From contig JAFDZF010000024.1 in NCBI GenBank assembly GCA_018267055.1, positions 1-32,822 on the forward strand: a DNA stretch of 32,822 nt, written 5' to 3'. The position numbers were made by a program, and so were the translations under genes. Numbering within the stretch: position 1 is the stretch's first letter; each line of letters begins with the position of its first letter. The DNA is from Bacteroidota bacterium. Lineage in GTDB: Bacteria; Bacteroidota; Bacteroidia; Flavobacteriales_F; PHOS-HE28. Below, one piece after another: positions 14,543-21,575 of this stretch. Under the pieces are notes generated by a model, which saw only the letters and a list, made by a program, of their open reading frames with translations, was not told where the DNA came from and ran no database searches.

Positions 14543-14653
14543 TTACTTCTTCTTGGCGGCCTTCTTCTTCGGAGCGGCCTTCTTAGCCGTAGCTTTCTTC
14601 GCAGCGGCTTTCTTGGGGGCCGCTTTCTTCTTTGCTGCTTTCTTCTTTGCCAT
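14543..14653 (-). CDS. Histone-H1-like Lys/Ala-rich small protein
   Basis: A 36-residue protein made almost only of Lys, Ala and Pro, starting MAKKKAAKKKAAPKKAAAKK. It resembles the tails of bacterial histone H1-like proteins (Hc1 type) and the tail of the bTHX gene at 10430. The ATG at 14653 is chosen because the upstream in-frame sequence has no such composition and a possible -7 box (TAGTTTGG on the minus strand, about 14676-14683) lies before it. A perfect 8-bp hairpin with a 3-base loop (14527-14545) includes the stop codon, and a T-rich terminator follows. Those flanking signals argue for a real, probably abundant, small protein that binds nucleic acid. It could also be the leftover tail of a longer gene. 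Confidence 0.7.
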   Translation of the reverse strand: MAKKKAAKKKAAPKKAAAKKATAKKAAPKKKAAKKK

Positions 14654-15693: not shown

Positions 15694-15750
15694 TCAGCCC
15701 GCATCCCTCTAGGGTTGAATCCACCCCACCAGCCACATTCTCCCCCGACT

Positions 15751-17769
15751 ATGCCTCTTCCGCAACCCTACATCGTGCTGCCCAAACCTGACATGCTATC
15801 AGAATTTGTATTGAACGTTGACAAACCCGACCTGCATCGAACATTTGGTCCAATTGATCGTGTCAACATCATAGTCGGACCAAACAATTCAAGAAAGAGC
15901 AGATTCATTAGAGAGCTTATTCGATCGGGATCAATCAACTTATACCACGACATCATTGAACATCAGTTCCAGTCCATCGATGGTAGGTTCGACGACTTGA
16001 GGATAGCGTTTCCGCCTGAACTTGAATTCAGGTTCACGGCCACAAATGGAAATGTGCAATTGAGTCACCCATTCAACAATGAACAGGATAGACCGCTTCT
16101 TGCACTTCACGCTGGCTTGAAGGAGATGCCCACCTTCACCCTCAATCAGCAGGCTATCATTGATGGGATGAATTTTGTTCGGGCATTCATCAATCATACT
16201 ACTCCAAACGAACATCAGAAGCTGTTAGGACCGCTCCAGCGACTTCGGTACTGCCTATGGTTCATCACCCAATATGAACGCTACGGCAACACGCGCATAC
16301 AACATAACGGAATACCAGTTCGGGTGGCAACGAACCTATCGCCAAACGCCCAACAACTCAACAGGTTCATGGCTGAAGCGAATGGCGTCATAAACGCAAT
16401 AGATGAGCTTCTGCGCATACAGATATCAGAGACGACTCCATTCAAGGAGGTCGTTCCTGCAACAAGGGTGATGCATAGGCTCTTTAACGTGGACGATGGG
16501 GCGACAAAGAAGTACATCCGTGAAAAAACACTAGCGGACACATTCATCCACAACTACGGATTCGCCGGAATCACAAACGTTCGATTTCACACAGGTCAGG
16601 ATTTATACAGCTCAATCAAGTCCCTGCGCAATGATGTCAGACCACTTCGAACAAGGTTCGATGATTTTGAGAAGTTCGTAGGCATCGAATTCTTCGGGGG
16701 TAAGAGCATTGATATCGTCGCGAAGGAGAAATCGAAGGACATTCTGGTCTTCATCGATGATAAGGAAGAACGCCTTGAAGACCTAGGCGATGGAATACAG
16801 GCGCTCATCCAAATCACTCTTCCTCTATACCTAGCGGACAATAAGTCTTGGGTGTTCATCGAAGAGCCCGAATTGCACCTCCATCCGGGCCTGCTGACAC
16901 TCTTCATGAAGACGGTTCTCAACAATGAGCAGATAAAAAAGAAGAATCTGATCATCTTCTTGACCACGCATTCCAATCATCTTCTTGATCAAAGCATCAC
17001 ACTGAACAAAGACATTTCCATTTTCACATTCACCCCAACCAAGAAAAAGACCGGCATACGAAATGTAATGAATCGTGATCTTTCTATACTTGACTTACTC
17101 GGGGTTGCAAATAGCTCTGTGTTCCTTTCAAAAACATCAATTTGGGTTGAAGGCATCACTGACAGAAAGATTATTTCAGCATATCTAAAGGCATATCTGA
17201 AAAAACACAATAAACAATATATAGAAGATTATGATTATGGATTCTTTGAATACGCAGGAAGCAACATCGTCCACTACATGTTCGCCGAAAGCCAAGGTCC
17301 AGAAGTTGAAGGCAAAATAAAAGCCTACTTTCTATCTCATCGAATTTGGCTTCTAGCGGATAAGGACTCAGGAAGGACCAAGGCTAACCGCTACAGGCAG
17401 TTGGGCGCAATGACCAACAAAGACTTCTGGTTCACAACTACGCACAGTCTGGAGATTGAGAATACACTATCGCCCGCGCTATTGAAGCATGTCATGATCA
17501 ATGCCTTTAAGATGGACCCAAAGCGCGTGCAGAAGATGCGGTTCACCCATACTGATTACAGGAAGGCAAAGCTTGGCCTCTTCTTGAAACGCAAGGGCCT
17601 TGGCTCTTCGCACTATGATGAGAAGGGCAATTTGACCAGTGCAGCGAAAATTAAAATTGCCCAAGCCGTGGAATCTGCACCATTGGTTTGGAATGATGAC
17701 TGGATGAGCACGCACGCAAAGAAGCTTGCGAAGTCTCTGGCGGAATTCCTCAGTACTCACTTGAAGTAG
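15751..17769 (+). CDS. OLD-family ATP-dependent nuclease (AAA ATPase + TOPRIM)
   Basis: A 672-residue protein with an ABC-type AAA ATPase followed by a TOPRIM nuclease domain, the plan of OLD-family nucleases such as phage P2 Old and Gabija GajA, which act against phages. Walker A is GPNNSRKS (43-50), with Arg where Gly is usual; the signature-like motif is LGDGIQAL (345-352); Walker B is WVFIEEPELHLHP (367-379); the H-loop histidine is His407 in LTTHSNHLL. TOPRIM residues are Glu467 in WVEGITDRK, Asp537 and Asp539 in LLADKDSG, and probably Glu568/Glu570 in SLEIENTL. GC is far lower than in neighbouring genes, indicating transfer. A TTG start at 15715 is possible but adds an unlikely proline-rich leader. 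No UvrD-type partner (GajB) follows, so it is either a stand-alone OLD or works with the downstream genes. Confidence 0.88.
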   Translation: MPLPQPYIVLPKPDMLSEFVLNVDKPDLHRTFGPIDRVNIIVGPNNSRKSRFIRELIRSGSINLYHDIIEHQFQSIDGRFDDLRIAFPPELEFRFTATNGNVQLSHPFNNEQDRPLLALHAGLKEMPTFTLNQQAIIDGMNFVRAFINHTTPNEHQKLLGPLQRLRYCLWFITQYERYGNTRIQHNGIPVRVATNLSPNAQQLNRFMAEANGVINAIDELLRIQISETTPFKEVVPATRVMHRLFNVDDGATKKYIREKTLADTFIHNYGFAGITNVRFHTGQDLYSSIKSLRNDVRPLRTRFDDFEKFVGIEFFGGKSIDIVAKEKSKDILVFIDDKEERLEDLGDGIQALIQITLPLYLADNKSWVFIEEPELHLHPGLLTLFMKTVLNNEQIKKKNLIIFLTTHSNHLLDQSITLNKDISIFTFTPTKKKTGIRNVMNRDLSILDLLGVANSSVFLSKTSIWVEGITDRKIISAYLKAYLKKHNKQYIEDYDYGFFEYAGSNIVHYMFAESQGPEVEGKIKAYFLSHRIWLLADKDSGRTKANRYRQLGAMTNKDFWFTTTHSLEIENTLSPALLKHVMINAFKMDPKRVQKMRFTHTDYRKAKLGLFLKRKGLGSSHYDEKGNLTSAAKIKIAQAVESAPLVWNDDWMSTHAKKLAKSLAEFLSTHLK

Positions 17770-17807: not shown

Positions 17808-18083
17808 ATGCCAGCGACCATCACCCTTTCCCTTCCTGCTACCATTCAAGACGTCACCCTGGGCCAGTGTTTGGCCTTCCTACGCGTCCTGACCGATTCA
17901 GCCTTAATCTGTCCCGTCTTCACGCCCTTCGGACCATTCCATTCCTCACAGAGGATTGGAATACTCGAAGAGTGGAGCGATGGTCGCTTTTTATTGACGC
18001 TGGGAGGACTTAAAGAGATTCTGTGGCAAGCGGCTTGTAATGGTGGAGGCACCACCAACACGCAAACCACATGGACGATGTAA
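17808..18083 (+). CDS. Small phage-like hypothetical protein
   Basis: A 91-residue frame between the OLD-family gene and the membrane protein gene. Its start, MPATITLSLPATIQDVTLGQCLAFL, resembles the opening of small Bacteroidota phage proteins of unknown role, in which a strand is followed by a D-(I/V)TL-Q pattern. It ends by overlapping the next gene by 13 bases, which would allow coupled translation. A second frame (17804-18013) overlaps it and is less convincing. No membrane segment or catalytic motif is visible. It may be a real gene of the island, a phage remnant, or a chance frame. Confidence 0.4.
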   Translation: MPATITLSLPATIQDVTLGQCLAFLRVLTDSALICPVFTPFGPFHSSQRIGILEEWSDGRFLLTLGGLKEILWQAACNGGGTTNTQTTWTM

Positions 18084-18745
18084 AGGCTGCTATCCTGGAC
18101 AGGCTCAAGAGTCCTTTCTATGGACCGCTTATGATCGCGTTCGCTGTGATCAACTGGCAGGGGATCTATGCCTTGCTCTTCCCCAGCACCGACAATGGCT
18201 TCATTGAACGCCTGAACTGGGTCCATGGCAACCTCTATGACGGCTTCTGGCCTATAGCGTTGAAGGTCTATGTGCTGCCGCTCGCGGTGGCCGTGTTCGC
18301 CATAACGGTCGTACCCTTCATCGTCAACAAGTTCGATGCGATTGTCACGGACGCGGAAGTTCAGCGTCAGAACAAGCGATTGGAAATCTCAAAAAAGCTC
18401 TCAACCGTGCTGCAGGAAGTAACCGCGTTGAAGGAGCAGGTCGTCAACCTGAACAAGCAGGTCAGGGACATCGAATACCGATACAACGTGGTCAAGGGGA
18501 GTGTGGGGCTCTTGGCCGCCACGAACGAACGCTTTTTGAACTATCTCAGGTTCCTTGGTGGTGATGACGTCCAATTGGAGGAACCGACCAAGGAGGAACT
18601 GTACTACCTGAAGACCATTGGCTATATCGCCACCCAAAGGGTCAAGGACAACCAGTTGACCGAATCTGGAAAGGACTTCCTCCGCTCTTACAAAGCGACT
18701 CCTCAGGGAACGACCTTCCGGATGGTGCAGGAGGATTCAGAGTGA
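18071..18745 (+). CDS. Two-helix membrane protein with coiled coil, island gene
   Basis: A 224-residue protein. The N-terminus (LDRLKSPFYGPLMIAFAVINWQGIYALLF) fits a pattern seen in uncharacterised two-helix proteins with an R-x-(S/T)-P-(F/L)-(Y/F)-G start and an NW pair inside the first helix (about 16-37). The second helix is about 61-87. A coiled coil follows (about 96-140: NKRLEISKKLSTVLQEVTALKEQVVNLNKQ and on), then a soluble domain (about 155-224) with TKEELYYLKTIGYI and QLTESGKDFLRSY, which reads like a small winged-helix unit. A cytoplasmic sensor tethered to the inner membrane is a fair inference. It lies downstream of the OLD-family gene on the same strand, inside the low-GC island. 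Function unknown; a defence effector or regulator is possible. Confidence 0.72.
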   Translation: MDDVKAAILDRLKSPFYGPLMIAFAVINWQGIYALLFPSTDNGFIERLNWVHGNLYDGFWPIALKVYVLPLAVAVFAITVVPFIVNKFDAIVTDAEVQRQNKRLEISKKLSTVLQEVTALKEQVVNLNKQVRDIEYRYNVVKGSVGLLAATNERFLNYLRFLGGDDVQLEEPTKEELYYLKTIGYIATQRVKDNQLTESGKDFLRSYKATPQGTTFRMVQEDSE

Positions 18746-18899: not shown

Positions 18900-18908
18900 T
18901 CGTAGCGC
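18900..18908 (+). repeat. Candidate att repeat, right copy in tRNA 3' end
   Basis: TCGTAGCGC, same as 15341-15349 and in direct orientation. It spans the last six bases of the tRNA-Met gene. See the island entry. Confidence 0.3.
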
Positions 18909-18976
18909 GAGAGTGACTTGAACACTCGACCTCATGATTATGAATCATGCGCTCTAACCAGCTGAGCTACCGCGCC
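18903..18976 (-). tRNA. tRNA-Met (anticodon CAU)
   Basis: A complete 74-base cloverleaf on the minus strand. The acceptor 5' arm is GGCGCGG, the D arm GCTC-AGCTGGTTA-GAGC, the anticodon stem CATGA/TCATG with loop TTCATAA (anticodon CAT), the T arm GAGTG-TTCAAGT-CACTC, and the 3' acceptor strand TCGCGCT with discriminator A. Pair 1-72 is G-U, which speaks against the initiator type (unpaired C1-A72) and for elongator Met; tRNA-Ile with lysidine is possible but its usual acceptor differs. The stem is also closed by G7-U66, so both end pairs are wobble. CCA is not encoded. The 3' end borders the island. Confidence 0.93.
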
Positions 18977-19049: not shown

Positions 19050-19079
19050 TTGCACGGCTGGTGGATCTGCTTACCTTTC
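19050..19079 (+). promoter_or_regulatory. Promoter of the START-like fusion gene
   Basis: TTG at 19050-19052, a 19-base spacer, then TACCTTTC at 19072-19079: both elements and the spacing fit the Bacteroidota consensus with one mismatch in the last base. The ATG follows at 19108. Confidence 0.6.
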
Positions 19080-19107
19080 CCGCTCACCCCTAGAGCGCGT
19101 GGCAGAC

Positions 19108-20022
19108 ATGGCGAAGAAGAAGGCGACCCCCAGCAAGAAGGCAGCGGGCAAGGCGAAAGCCCCCGCCCGCAAACCTGCCCGACCGGCCGGCAAGCCGGCC
19201 CCGAAGAAGAAAGCGGCCCCTGCCAAGAAAGCGAAGCAAGCCCCCGCCGGATCCGCCGCCAAGACCGGTGGAAAAAAGCCCGCCCCCGCGCCCAAGAAAA
19301 AAGCGGCCCCGAAGCCCCCTGCGAAGAAGCCTGCCCGACCGGCAGGCGGGGCCGCCCCGAAGAAAGCCCCCCCGGCGCCCAAGCCTCCGGCCAAGAAGGC
19401 CGCGCCGGCCAAAGCGCCCGTGAAGAAGGCCCCTCCGCCTGCCTCGCCGGAACCGGCCGTGGCGGCGAAAGCCGCGGCACCGGCCAAAGCGCCGGCGCCC
19501 ACCCCCAAGGCCGCCCCGGTCAAGGCCCCGGCCGCCCCGGCACCCGCCAAGCCCGGCCGTGCCCCCAAGCCGAAGGAGCCCATCATGGCCGTGATGACCG
19601 GCCTGGAACCCCTCGGCGGTCCCGCCCGCACCTTGAAGCGGGCCCTGAAGGAGCGCTTCCAGCAGGAGTTCTACCTGCGCGCCACGCCCGGCTCCCTCTA
19701 CGACCTGATCAGCTCCCCCAGCGGGTTCAGCGAATGGTTCTGCGACGACGTGGACGTGAGCGGCGACGAGTTCACCTTCAAGTGGGGCCTGGAAAGCCAG
19801 CACGCGGAATGCCTCAGCCGCAAGTTCGGCGAGATGATCCGCTTCCGCTGGCTGGACGACGACGATCCCGGCGCCTTCTTCGAGCTGCGCATCCGCATCG
19901 ACCCCATGACCAACGAGACCTGCCTGGTGGTGACCGACCACGCCTGGCCGCAGGACCTGGAGGAGGCCAAGGCGCTGTGGGAGTCGCAGATCCACACGCT
20001 GGCCCGGGTGTTGGGGGCCTGA
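19108..20022 (+). CDS. START-like domain protein fused to histone-H1-like region
   Basis: A 304-residue protein in two parts. Residues 1 to about 155 are almost only Lys, Ala and Pro (MAKKKATPSKKAAGKAK and so on), like eukaryotic-type H1 tails, with ARPAG twice. Residues from about 170 to 304 form a START-like (SRPBCC, AHSA1-related) domain known from Flavobacteria: FQQEFYLRATPGSLYDLIS, SGFSEWFCDDV, EFTFKWGLESQHAECLSRKFGEMIRFRWLDDDD, FFELRIRIDPMTNETCLVVTDHAW, ALWESQIHTLARVLGA. The flavobacterial relatives I know are about 130 residues without such a tail. ATG 19108 gives the same MAKKK start as the 36-residue protein; a GTG three codons earlier is possible, and an internal ATG at 19585 would give the START domain alone. 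A good promoter lies upstream of the long form, which supports the fusion. Confidence 0.85.
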   Translation: MAKKKATPSKKAAGKAKAPARKPARPAGKPAPKKKAAPAKKAKQAPAGSAAKTGGKKPAPAPKKKAAPKPPAKKPARPAGGAAPKKAPPAPKPPAKKAAPAKAPVKKAPPPASPEPAVAAKAAAPAKAPAPTPKAAPVKAPAAPAPAKPGRAPKPKEPIMAVMTGLEPLGGPARTLKRALKERFQQEFYLRATPGSLYDLISSPSGFSEWFCDDVDVSGDEFTFKWGLESQHAECLSRKFGEMIRFRWLDDDDPGAFFELRIRIDPMTNETCLVVTDHAWPQDLEEAKALWESQIHTLARVLGA

Positions 20023-20031
20023 TCGGCTCCA

Positions 20032-20093
20032 AGCCGCAAGCCTCAAGCCCCTTGCTCGGCCGGAACTGAGCCGGGGGCTTGAGGCTTGCGGCT
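20032..20093. repeat. Long perfect inverted repeat (20-bp arms)
   Basis: Arms 20032-20051 and 20074-20093 are exact complements (AGCCGCAAGCCTCAAGCCCC on the left), around a 22-base centre that can pair further. It starts 9 bases after the START-like gene stop. It may act as a terminator or be a dispersed intergenic palindrome. Its right arm contains the TTG of the next promoter. Confidence 0.85.
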
Positions 20094-20123: not shown

Positions 20124-21575
20124 ATGAAGCGGCTGCACCGTCTCATCATCGGGGTCTACTGGGGGCCGTTGCTGGTCACCTTCATCATCGTGCTCTTCCT
20201 CTTCAGCATGCAATGGCTGTGGAAGTGGGTGGACGAGCTGATGGGCAAGGGCCTGCCCTGGGACGTGCTGGTGCGGCTGATCGCCTACGCCACCTCGGCC
20301 TTCGTGCCCGCCGTGCTGCCGCTGGCGGTGCTGCTCTCGTCCATCATGACCATGGGCGGGCTGGGCGAGCGCTCGGAGCTCACCCCCATGCGCTCGGCGG
20401 GCCTGGGCCTGTTCAAGATCCTGATGCCGCTGATCGTGTTCGTGCTCGGCCTGGCCGCCTTCTCGTTCTACTTCAGCAACAATGTGCTGCCCCTGGCGAA
20501 CCTGCGCTTCCAGAGCCTGCTGTGGGACGTGACCAAGACCAAGCCCGCCCTGAACCTGAAGCCCGGTGTGTTCTTCAACGGGTTGGACGGATTCAGCATC
20601 CGCGTGAAGGGCAAGGACGACGCCACGGGCCAGCTGGAGGACGTGCTGATCTACGACCACCGCCAACCCTTCCAGGCCAACCGCACGGTGGTGCGCGCCG
20701 CCCGGGGCCACATGCGCCGCAGCACCGACGGGCATTACCTGGTGCTGATCCTGGAGGACGGGCGCATCTATGACGATCAGGACAAGAGCACCTCCGGCCT
20801 GCGCGGCAACAACCCGCTGCTGCGCGGCCGCTTCGCCCGCGACGAGATCCGCCTGGACCTCACCGGACTGGGCCTGAAGCGCACCAACGAGGACCTCTTC
20901 AAGGACCATTACAAGATGCTCACGCTGGGCCAGCTGGGCTATGCCGAGGACAGCCTGCAGCGCAAGCTCGACCAGCGCATCAACGAGCAGGACCATTACC
21001 TCCGCAACGGCCTCTATGTGACCCGCGACAGCGTGCGGGCGGCCGAGGACGGCCCCTTCAGCGACATGGCCAGCTTCCGCAAGGGCCTGACGGCGGACGA
21101 GCGCAACAACTACTACGCGACGGCCACGTCCATGGTGCGCAACACCATCAACTTCATCGACCGGGTGACGGCCGAGCGCCAGGAGCGGCTGCAGCAGATC
21201 TCGAAGTTCCAGGTGGAGTGGCACCGCAAGCTGATGCTGGCCTTCGCCTGCGTCATCTTCTTCTTCATCGGCGCGCCGCTGGGGGCCATCGTGCGCAAGG
21301 GCGGCATGGGCCTGCCCACGGTGATCGCGATCGTGTTCTTCCTGGTGTTCCACATCCTCTCCTACTCCACCGAGCAGATCGTGAAAGCGGGCACGCTCTC
21401 CGCCTGGCCCGGCATGTGGATCAGCAGCATGGTGCTGCTGCCCATCGGCATCTTCATCACCTGGAAGGCCGCCACCGACAGCCCGCTGTTCGACCGCGAT
21501 GCGTATGATCGCGTCTGGTACCGCATCCGGGACCGTTTCCGCCGACGCCATGCGCATCCTCCAACTGTGCCATAA
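20124..21575 (+). CDS. LptF/LptG family permease (LPS export)
   Basis: A 483-residue YjgP/YjgQ-family inner-membrane protein, a subunit of the LptBFG transporter that lifts LPS out of the inner membrane. Three N-terminal helices (about 10-30, 50-72, 95-118) are seen, with the conserved ERSELTPMRSAG segment that docks to the LptB ATPase. A large periplasmic beta-jellyroll region follows (about 130-375, with a helical insert KDHYKMLTLGQLGYAEDSLQRKLDQR), then three C-terminal helices with the IGAPLGAIVRKGGMGLPTVIAIVFFL block. In Bacteroidota the family is longer than in Proteobacteria, as here. The ATG at 20124 gives a normal start (MKRLHRLIIGVYWGPLLVTF). It overlaps the following glycosyltransferase gene by 26 bases. 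Confidence 0.92.
   Translation: MKRLHRLIIGVYWGPLLVTFIIVLFLFSMQWLWKWVDELMGKGLPWDVLVRLIAYATSAFVPAVLPLAVLLSSIMTMGGLGERSELTPMRSAGLGLFKILMPLIVFVLGLAAFSFYFSNNVLPLANLRFQSLLWDVTKTKPALNLKPGVFFNGLDGFSIRVKGKDDATGQLEDVLIYDHRQPFQANRTVVRAARGHMRRSTDGHYLVLILEDGRIYDDQDKSTSGLRGNNPLLRGRFARDEIRLDLTGLGLKRTNEDLFKDHYKMLTLGQLGYAEDSLQRKLDQRINEQDHYLRNGLYVTRDSVRAAEDGPFSDMASFRKGLTADERNNYYATATSMVRNTINFIDRVTAERQERLQQISKFQVEWHRKLMLAFACVIFFFIGAPLGAIVRKGGMGLPTVIAIVFFLVFHILSYSTEQIVKAGTLSAWPGMWISSMVLLPIGIFITWKAATDSPLFDRDAYDRVWYRIRDRFRRRHAHPPTVP

Follow-up and report, generated by a model that had tools for sequence, protein, structure and literature searches.

A long lysine-, alanine- and proline-rich tail, predicted to be disordered, is joined in one open frame to the START_2 domain of a 304-residue protein from a Bacteroidota bacterium, and comparison with relatives indicates that this fusion is real and conserved and constitutes a variant of the START_2 family apparently not described before. 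The fusion, its long-form start, the coding-type evolution of the tail and its near-constant net charge are established at the level of sequence, and the role proposed below, in which the tail would anchor the domain to the nucleoid, is put forward conditionally. The gene lies at positions 19108-20022 on the plus strand of the window, by which we mean the whole stretch of 32,822 nucleotides that was analysed, and its main features are as follows.

19050..19079, plus strand: putative Bacteroidetes-type promoter TTGCACGGCTGGTGGATCTGCTTACCTTTC, in which exactly 22 nt separate TTG and TA
19108 (ATG), plus strand: long-form start by open-frame reading, with an in-frame GTG at 19099 and the stop TGA at 20020
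19108..19584, plus strand: N-terminal Lys/Ala/Pro tail of 159 residues, charge +41, predicted disordered
19585..19647, plus strand: linker MAVMTGLEPLGGPARTLKRAL, holding the alternative start M19585, which is not conserved
19648..20022, plus strand: START_2 domain (PF19569; residues 181-304, Pfam E 1.4e-30) and stop codon

The preliminary description of this DNA had seen a Lys/Ala/Pro region of 155 residues fused to a START-like domain; the region is indeed long, although its exact length is 159 residues when counted before M(19585), with 53 A, 41 P, 39 K, 4 R and 2 E, and D, F, W, Y and C absent from the composition count. Since the other frames of the same GC-rich stretch are likewise open, the open frame alone is weak evidence, and the comparative evidence is the stronger because relatives show the fusion, the promoter and coding-type change. 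A START_2 domain is present in 44 of 45 genomes of the genus, probably PHOS-HE28 of GTDB, the window's own counted, the exception being a 76% complete genome (G026) in which none was found. In 41 of these 44 loci an uninterrupted frame joins a start codon, a K/R-rich tail and the domain, which bears out the one-frame reading; 40 begin with MA followed by K, Q, S, T, H or R, or with MSP, and one (L018) with MPKPKK. At the remaining three (L034, L036 and L041) the contig ends before a start is reached, with 291, 39 and 83 residues open ahead of the domain. A stop between the two parts, which the preliminary description had named as grounds for abandoning its reading, occurs in none of the 44 loci, and tail loss was not seen among them.

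Within the genus the tail changes as coding sequence does, in spite of many indels and low identity even among close species. Codon position 3 is the most variable in the tail in all 10 related pairs compared, and 41 of the 48 tail gap runs in these pairs are multiples of three, with 19-29 aligned tail columns out of phase in three of the pairs. The tail dN/dS, computable in 15 of 20 chosen pairs, ranges from 0.12 to 0.72 and is below 1 in every case, and that of the domain, computable in 16 of 20, from 0.00 to 0.24.

The long-form start is well supported. The preliminary description had also claimed a consensus promoter upstream; a putative Bacteroidetes-type site stands there, with its TA 36 nt upstream of the ATG at 19108, whereas a sigma-70 scan found no promoter upstream of the gene. 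The Bacteroidetes element is given as TAnnTTTG in an excerpt of PMC10309648. A stricter TAnnTTT was found in 17 of 40 genus loci, and after inspection of the sequences the pattern was loosened to TANNTT with TTG, which 38 of 40 loci carry no more than 75 nt from the long-form start (the misses are L024 and L031; L042 was too short and was omitted). The spacing from TTG to TA is 22 nt in 37 of these loci and 21 nt in one, and the loosened form has a background of 1.7% among 20,500 random 75-mers from the same loci. Of the internal ATGs close to the domain in genus loci, 33 in all, not one has this site. A start at 19585, which had been named as the other finding that would tell against the fusion, gains no support from the comparison, as a methionine stands at that offset in one of 41 genus junctions, that of the window's own locus, and it is the long start that is preceded by the putative promoter.

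What is nearly constant in the tail is its charge density rather than its composition. In 83 tailed loci of 13 families, spanning a GC3 of 0.14-0.97, tail length ranges from 96 to 373 residues and the sequence varies as well, with a net charge per residue of 0.263 +/- 0.036 (range 0.16-0.39) and a total charge of +51 +/- 12. The set leaves aside three loci with no start in the contig (L034, L036, L041) and short or start-less tails (L097, L098, L100, L105), and retains two that run off the contig end (L058, L104) and one whose domain is cut (L044). Since the rows are related and not phylogenetically independent, p-values are indicative only: alanine, proline and arginine rise with GC3 (rho 0.85, 0.81 and 0.60) and lysine falls (rho -0.70), charge density still rises slightly with GC3 (rho 0.23, p 0.034), and for total tail charge no trend was detectable (rho 0.13, p 0.25). 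Across the 13 family means the charge correlation does not reach significance (rho 0.44, p 0.13), and lysine is flat (rho -0.10). A charge density that stays nearly constant while composition follows GC is what one would expect of selection acting on charge and not on sequence. The START domain is itself acidic, at -0.073 net charge per residue. Together, F, W, Y, C and H make up 1% of the tail on average, while I, L and M reach 17% in AT-rich genomes.

The identity of the folded part is clear from its profile match, as the domain scores 106.2 bits against a cut-off of 23.6 for PF19569 and covers model positions 4-126 of 126, and thus belongs to the family. AlphaFold predicts a confident START fold (pLDDT about 97) and, for residues 1-180, block pLDDT values of 48-66 and no secondary structure, from an input alignment of 52 sequences of which four, including the window's, are tailed; the protein is accordingly predicted to combine a START fold with a disordered tail. 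The first Foldseek match of the model is 2lio from B. fragilis (E 1.4e-10), the structure of the START_2 member BfR322, which shares the same domain over near full length (phmmer E 6.9e-20) but, as a chain of 136 residues, lacks the long tail of the window protein. VIA gave as its best match 2m89 (Z 15.8, rmsd 2.2 over 122 residues), the Colwellia Aha1, and Aha1 domains as the nearest; 2lio was absent among the 50 matches listed by VIA. The window domain thus resembles AHSA1/Aha1 in fold; in sequence it is at most a weak match to PF08327 (AHSA1), the domain alone scoring just above the cut-off of 22.1 bits (24.3) and the whole protein just below it (21.5). A role as HSP90 co-chaperone or activator is nevertheless unlikely for this organism, because no HSP90 (PF00183) match was found in its genome (G000, a draft in 203 contigs estimated as 99.5% complete) by a search that gave matches in 5 of 14 genomes, a Bacteroides control included.

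Of 295 genomes sampled from the class, 237 have START_2, and outside the class a sample of 395 phylum genomes gave two matches only, both weak. K-rich tails of at least 80 residues were found at 42 loci outside the genus, in 12 other families (f6, f7, f15, f18, f20, f27, f28, f37, f41, f44, f45 and f71), in counts that do not measure prevalence, as class loci were fetched by their long frames. These 42 loci have a GC3 of 0.14-0.64, so that AT-rich genomes are included; three f15 loci have shorter tails of 45-53 residues, and in one locus (L105) the K-rich frame does not open with an ATG. The preliminary description had proposed that relatives be checked for the same fusion, which is indeed present in the genus and in these 12 other families, and had called it unusual, a word too strong within the class. 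Its statement that flavobacterial START proteins are about 130 residues long holds well, as 77 of the best 80 of 581 confirmed named loci are tail-less, among them relatives in Winogradskyella, Aquimarina, Myroides, Chryseobacterium and Carboxylicivirga, and the three tailed ones are MAGs named 'Flavobacteriales bacterium'. In a START-domain tree of 61 rows the tailed rows are scattered and parsimony counts 4 changes, and in one of 111 rows, in which L113 and L114 are wrongly labelled as tailed, it counts 7; a single clade of tailed rows was not rejected by the AU test (p 0.077). A repeated gain of the tail is possible on these trees. No description of the architecture was found in the open-licence literature, most subscription papers lying outside the scope of that search.

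The closest parallels in design are PhaF and AlgP of Pseudomonas, described in excerpts of PMC9239181 and PMC13052382 as joining a domain of other function to a long K/P/A tail that is reported to bind DNA. The window tail, with its 159 residues, charge of +41, low pLDDT and predicted disorder, shares this trait; it differs in lying at the N-terminus rather than the C-terminus and in having an unrelated partner, the START domain, and whereas granule and DNA association are reported for PhaF and AlgP, the window protein is known from its sequence. The histone H1-like proteins Hc1 and Hc2 are similarly rich in Lys and Ala, unlike the window tail in that the latter is fused to a folded domain; the Hc1 profile PF07432 matched neither the window protein (Pfam up to E 1) nor any protein of its genome up to E 10.

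Similar stretches occur elsewhere in the genus. A pattern search of 44 genus genomes gave KKAAPKK-type matches in 25, a backward control pattern matching in one. Among the 31 matches listed, 18 loci were inspected and comprise 10 K/A peptides of 31-49 residues, three topoisomerase I C-termini, three other frames, one Dps-like ferritin and one M42 peptidase; at least one uninspected match shares its contig (G032:C37) with a START tail. The topoisomerase I tails are of KKAAPKK or RKAAPRK type (L231, L233 and L238, in G022, G024 and G033), the Dps-like ferritin (L232:1030-1563, minus strand) has a short N-terminal MAKKKAGKKG stretch, and the M42 peptidase begins with a short MAKKTAAKKAA. The DNA-binding carriers, topoisomerase I and the Dps-like protein, favour a DNA role for such tails, although the M42 peptidase indicates that Lys-rich stretches are not confined to DNA proteins. 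One free peptide is encoded in the window itself.

14543-14653, minus strand: open frame of a free 36-residue K/A peptide MAKKKAAKKKAAPKKAAAKKATAKKAAPKKKAAKKK, beginning MAKKKAAKKKAAPKK

By eye, TAGTTTGG stands 26 nt upstream of this frame and a hairpin-like sequence with a T run follows it; no match to Pfam or NCBIfam was seen up to E 0.001.

From the composition, the AlgP/PhaF precedent and the topoisomerase I and Dps-like tails, a DNA- or RNA-binding tail is plausible. In the mechanism that we propose, the gene would give one cytosolic protein of 304 residues, whose first 159-180 residues would be a disordered polycation, conserved in charge density, with non-specific affinity for a polyanion, in all likelihood the DNA of the nucleoid, and whose last 125 residues, the acidic START_2 domain, would bind a hydrophobic or envelope-lipid-related ligand or a partner. 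The tail would keep the START domain on the nucleoid or raise its concentration there, as the PhaF and AlgP tails do for granule-binding domains. We infer the cytosolic location, DNA as the target, the ligand and the tethering role, and consider the chances of such a nucleoid-DNA anchor, tethering a ligand- or partner-binding domain, to be about evenly balanced; polycations bind any polyanion, and 77 of the best 80 of 581 named relatives do without a tail, both of which count against a tether, as do the variable length and sequence of the tails and the weak trend of charge density with GC3. The observation in the preliminary description is confirmed, and its interpretation is partly supported, namely for the fusion and the long-form start; ligand sensing by the START/Aha1-like fold is a supposition.

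The surroundings of the gene bear on a different reading, in which the polybasic tail would bind anionic lipid, the phosphates of lipid A or the inner membrane, and the protein would handle envelope lipids together with its neighbours.

18902..18976, minus strand: divergent tRNA-Met (CAT; ARAGORN), a conserved upstream neighbour that serves as orthology marker
20124..21575, plus strand: LptF/LptG-family permease gene (PF03739, E 1e-72), with TTG at 20079 and ATG at 20124

The divergent tRNA-Met is found upstream in 39 of 44 genus loci (L034, L036, L041 and L042 are cut, or nearly so, by a contig end, and in L003 none was seen), and 59 of the best 80 of 581 named loci have it a short way upstream, on the other strand. 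On its far side, an AAA ATPase gene (15715-17769, plus strand) matches AriA/GajA/OLD-type defence models in part (best E 1.6e-20). The GC of this stretch beside the tRNA-Met is lower (0.46-0.54 per kb), and it is possibly an acquired island. Between the AAA gene and the tRNA, a 224-residue protein (18071-18745, plus strand) has weak, sub-cut-off matches only, several of them to coiled-coil families. Downstream, LptF/G follows in all genus loci but L044, where the sequence is too short to hold it (43 of 44), or in 38 of 43 under a stricter overlap rule. This favours the envelope-lipid reading, as do a PAP2-type lipid phosphatase and a PMT_2-type transferase among the neighbours, the former followed by the latter in several loci (PAP2 calls were Pfam-confirmed for the three of three proteins tried, and the others made by similarity to those). 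START folds, moreover, often bind lipids. Among 46 tailed loci outside the genus, the next gene is PAP2 in 24, LptF/G in 2, aminotransferase IV in none and unrecognised in 20, many of which have only 300-400 nt downstream. However, in the best 80 of 581 named loci the commonest first recognised gene is an aminotransferase IV, no lipid gene (52, against 18 LptF/G, 7 PAP2 and 3 none), LptF/G and PAP2 are both absent from four longer f41 loci, and the tail is poor in the aromatic and related residues counted above, although I, L and M are less scarce in AT-rich genomes. Nor does START_2 track LpxC or LptF/G: each is present in 18 of 20 genomes lacking START_2 and in 20 of 20 bearing it, so a tie between START_2 and LPS genes was set aside as uninformative. 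On this balance we regard an envelope-lipid role of the tail as unlikely.

A tail that binds RNA, ribosomes or polyphosphate instead of DNA would draw on similar precedents. Lys-rich extensions are also borne by ribosomal proteins. According to an excerpt of PMC9239181, AlgP, whose tail is similar, is found with polyP granules, which are not evenly spaced unless it is present. No sequence feature was seen that points to RNA or polyP, and such a target seems to us quite unlikely. That the tail is a low-complexity expansion without selected function would agree with its high indel rate, its low identity and the frequency of tail-less orthologues, but the charge density nearly held over the whole GC3 range and 13 families, the absence of tail loss in the 44 genus loci, dN/dS below 1 in 15 of 15 pairs and mostly in-phase gaps make this improbable. 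Finally, that translation starts near 19585 and the tail is an artefact of a GC-rich open frame draws on the presence of M19585 and the openness of the other frames, and is very improbable given the methionine in one of 41 loci, the 33 internal ATGs without a promoter-like site, the coding-type evolution of the tail and the same architecture in AT-rich genomes.

Returning to the nucleoid anchor, the fullest form of the proposal is that a START_2 protein gained a charge-selected polycation tail in many families of the class, perhaps several times, and that the tail links the nucleoid with a ligand that is hydrophobic or an envelope lipid; as a whole this is rather unlikely, and if true it would amount to a bacterial lipid-chromatin link, in a protein whose gene has tRNA-Met, and often genes for envelope lipids, as neighbours. 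The architecture is widespread in the class and apparently not described before, and in its disordered tail the charge is nearly constant while the amino-acid make-up drifts with genome GC. That topoisomerase I and a Dps-like protein bear tails of a similar kind in genus members suggests a general nucleoid-targeting device. The family may offer a case in which to see how a folded domain is addressed by a non-specific polycation tail, as well as a possible handle on the role of START_2 proteins.
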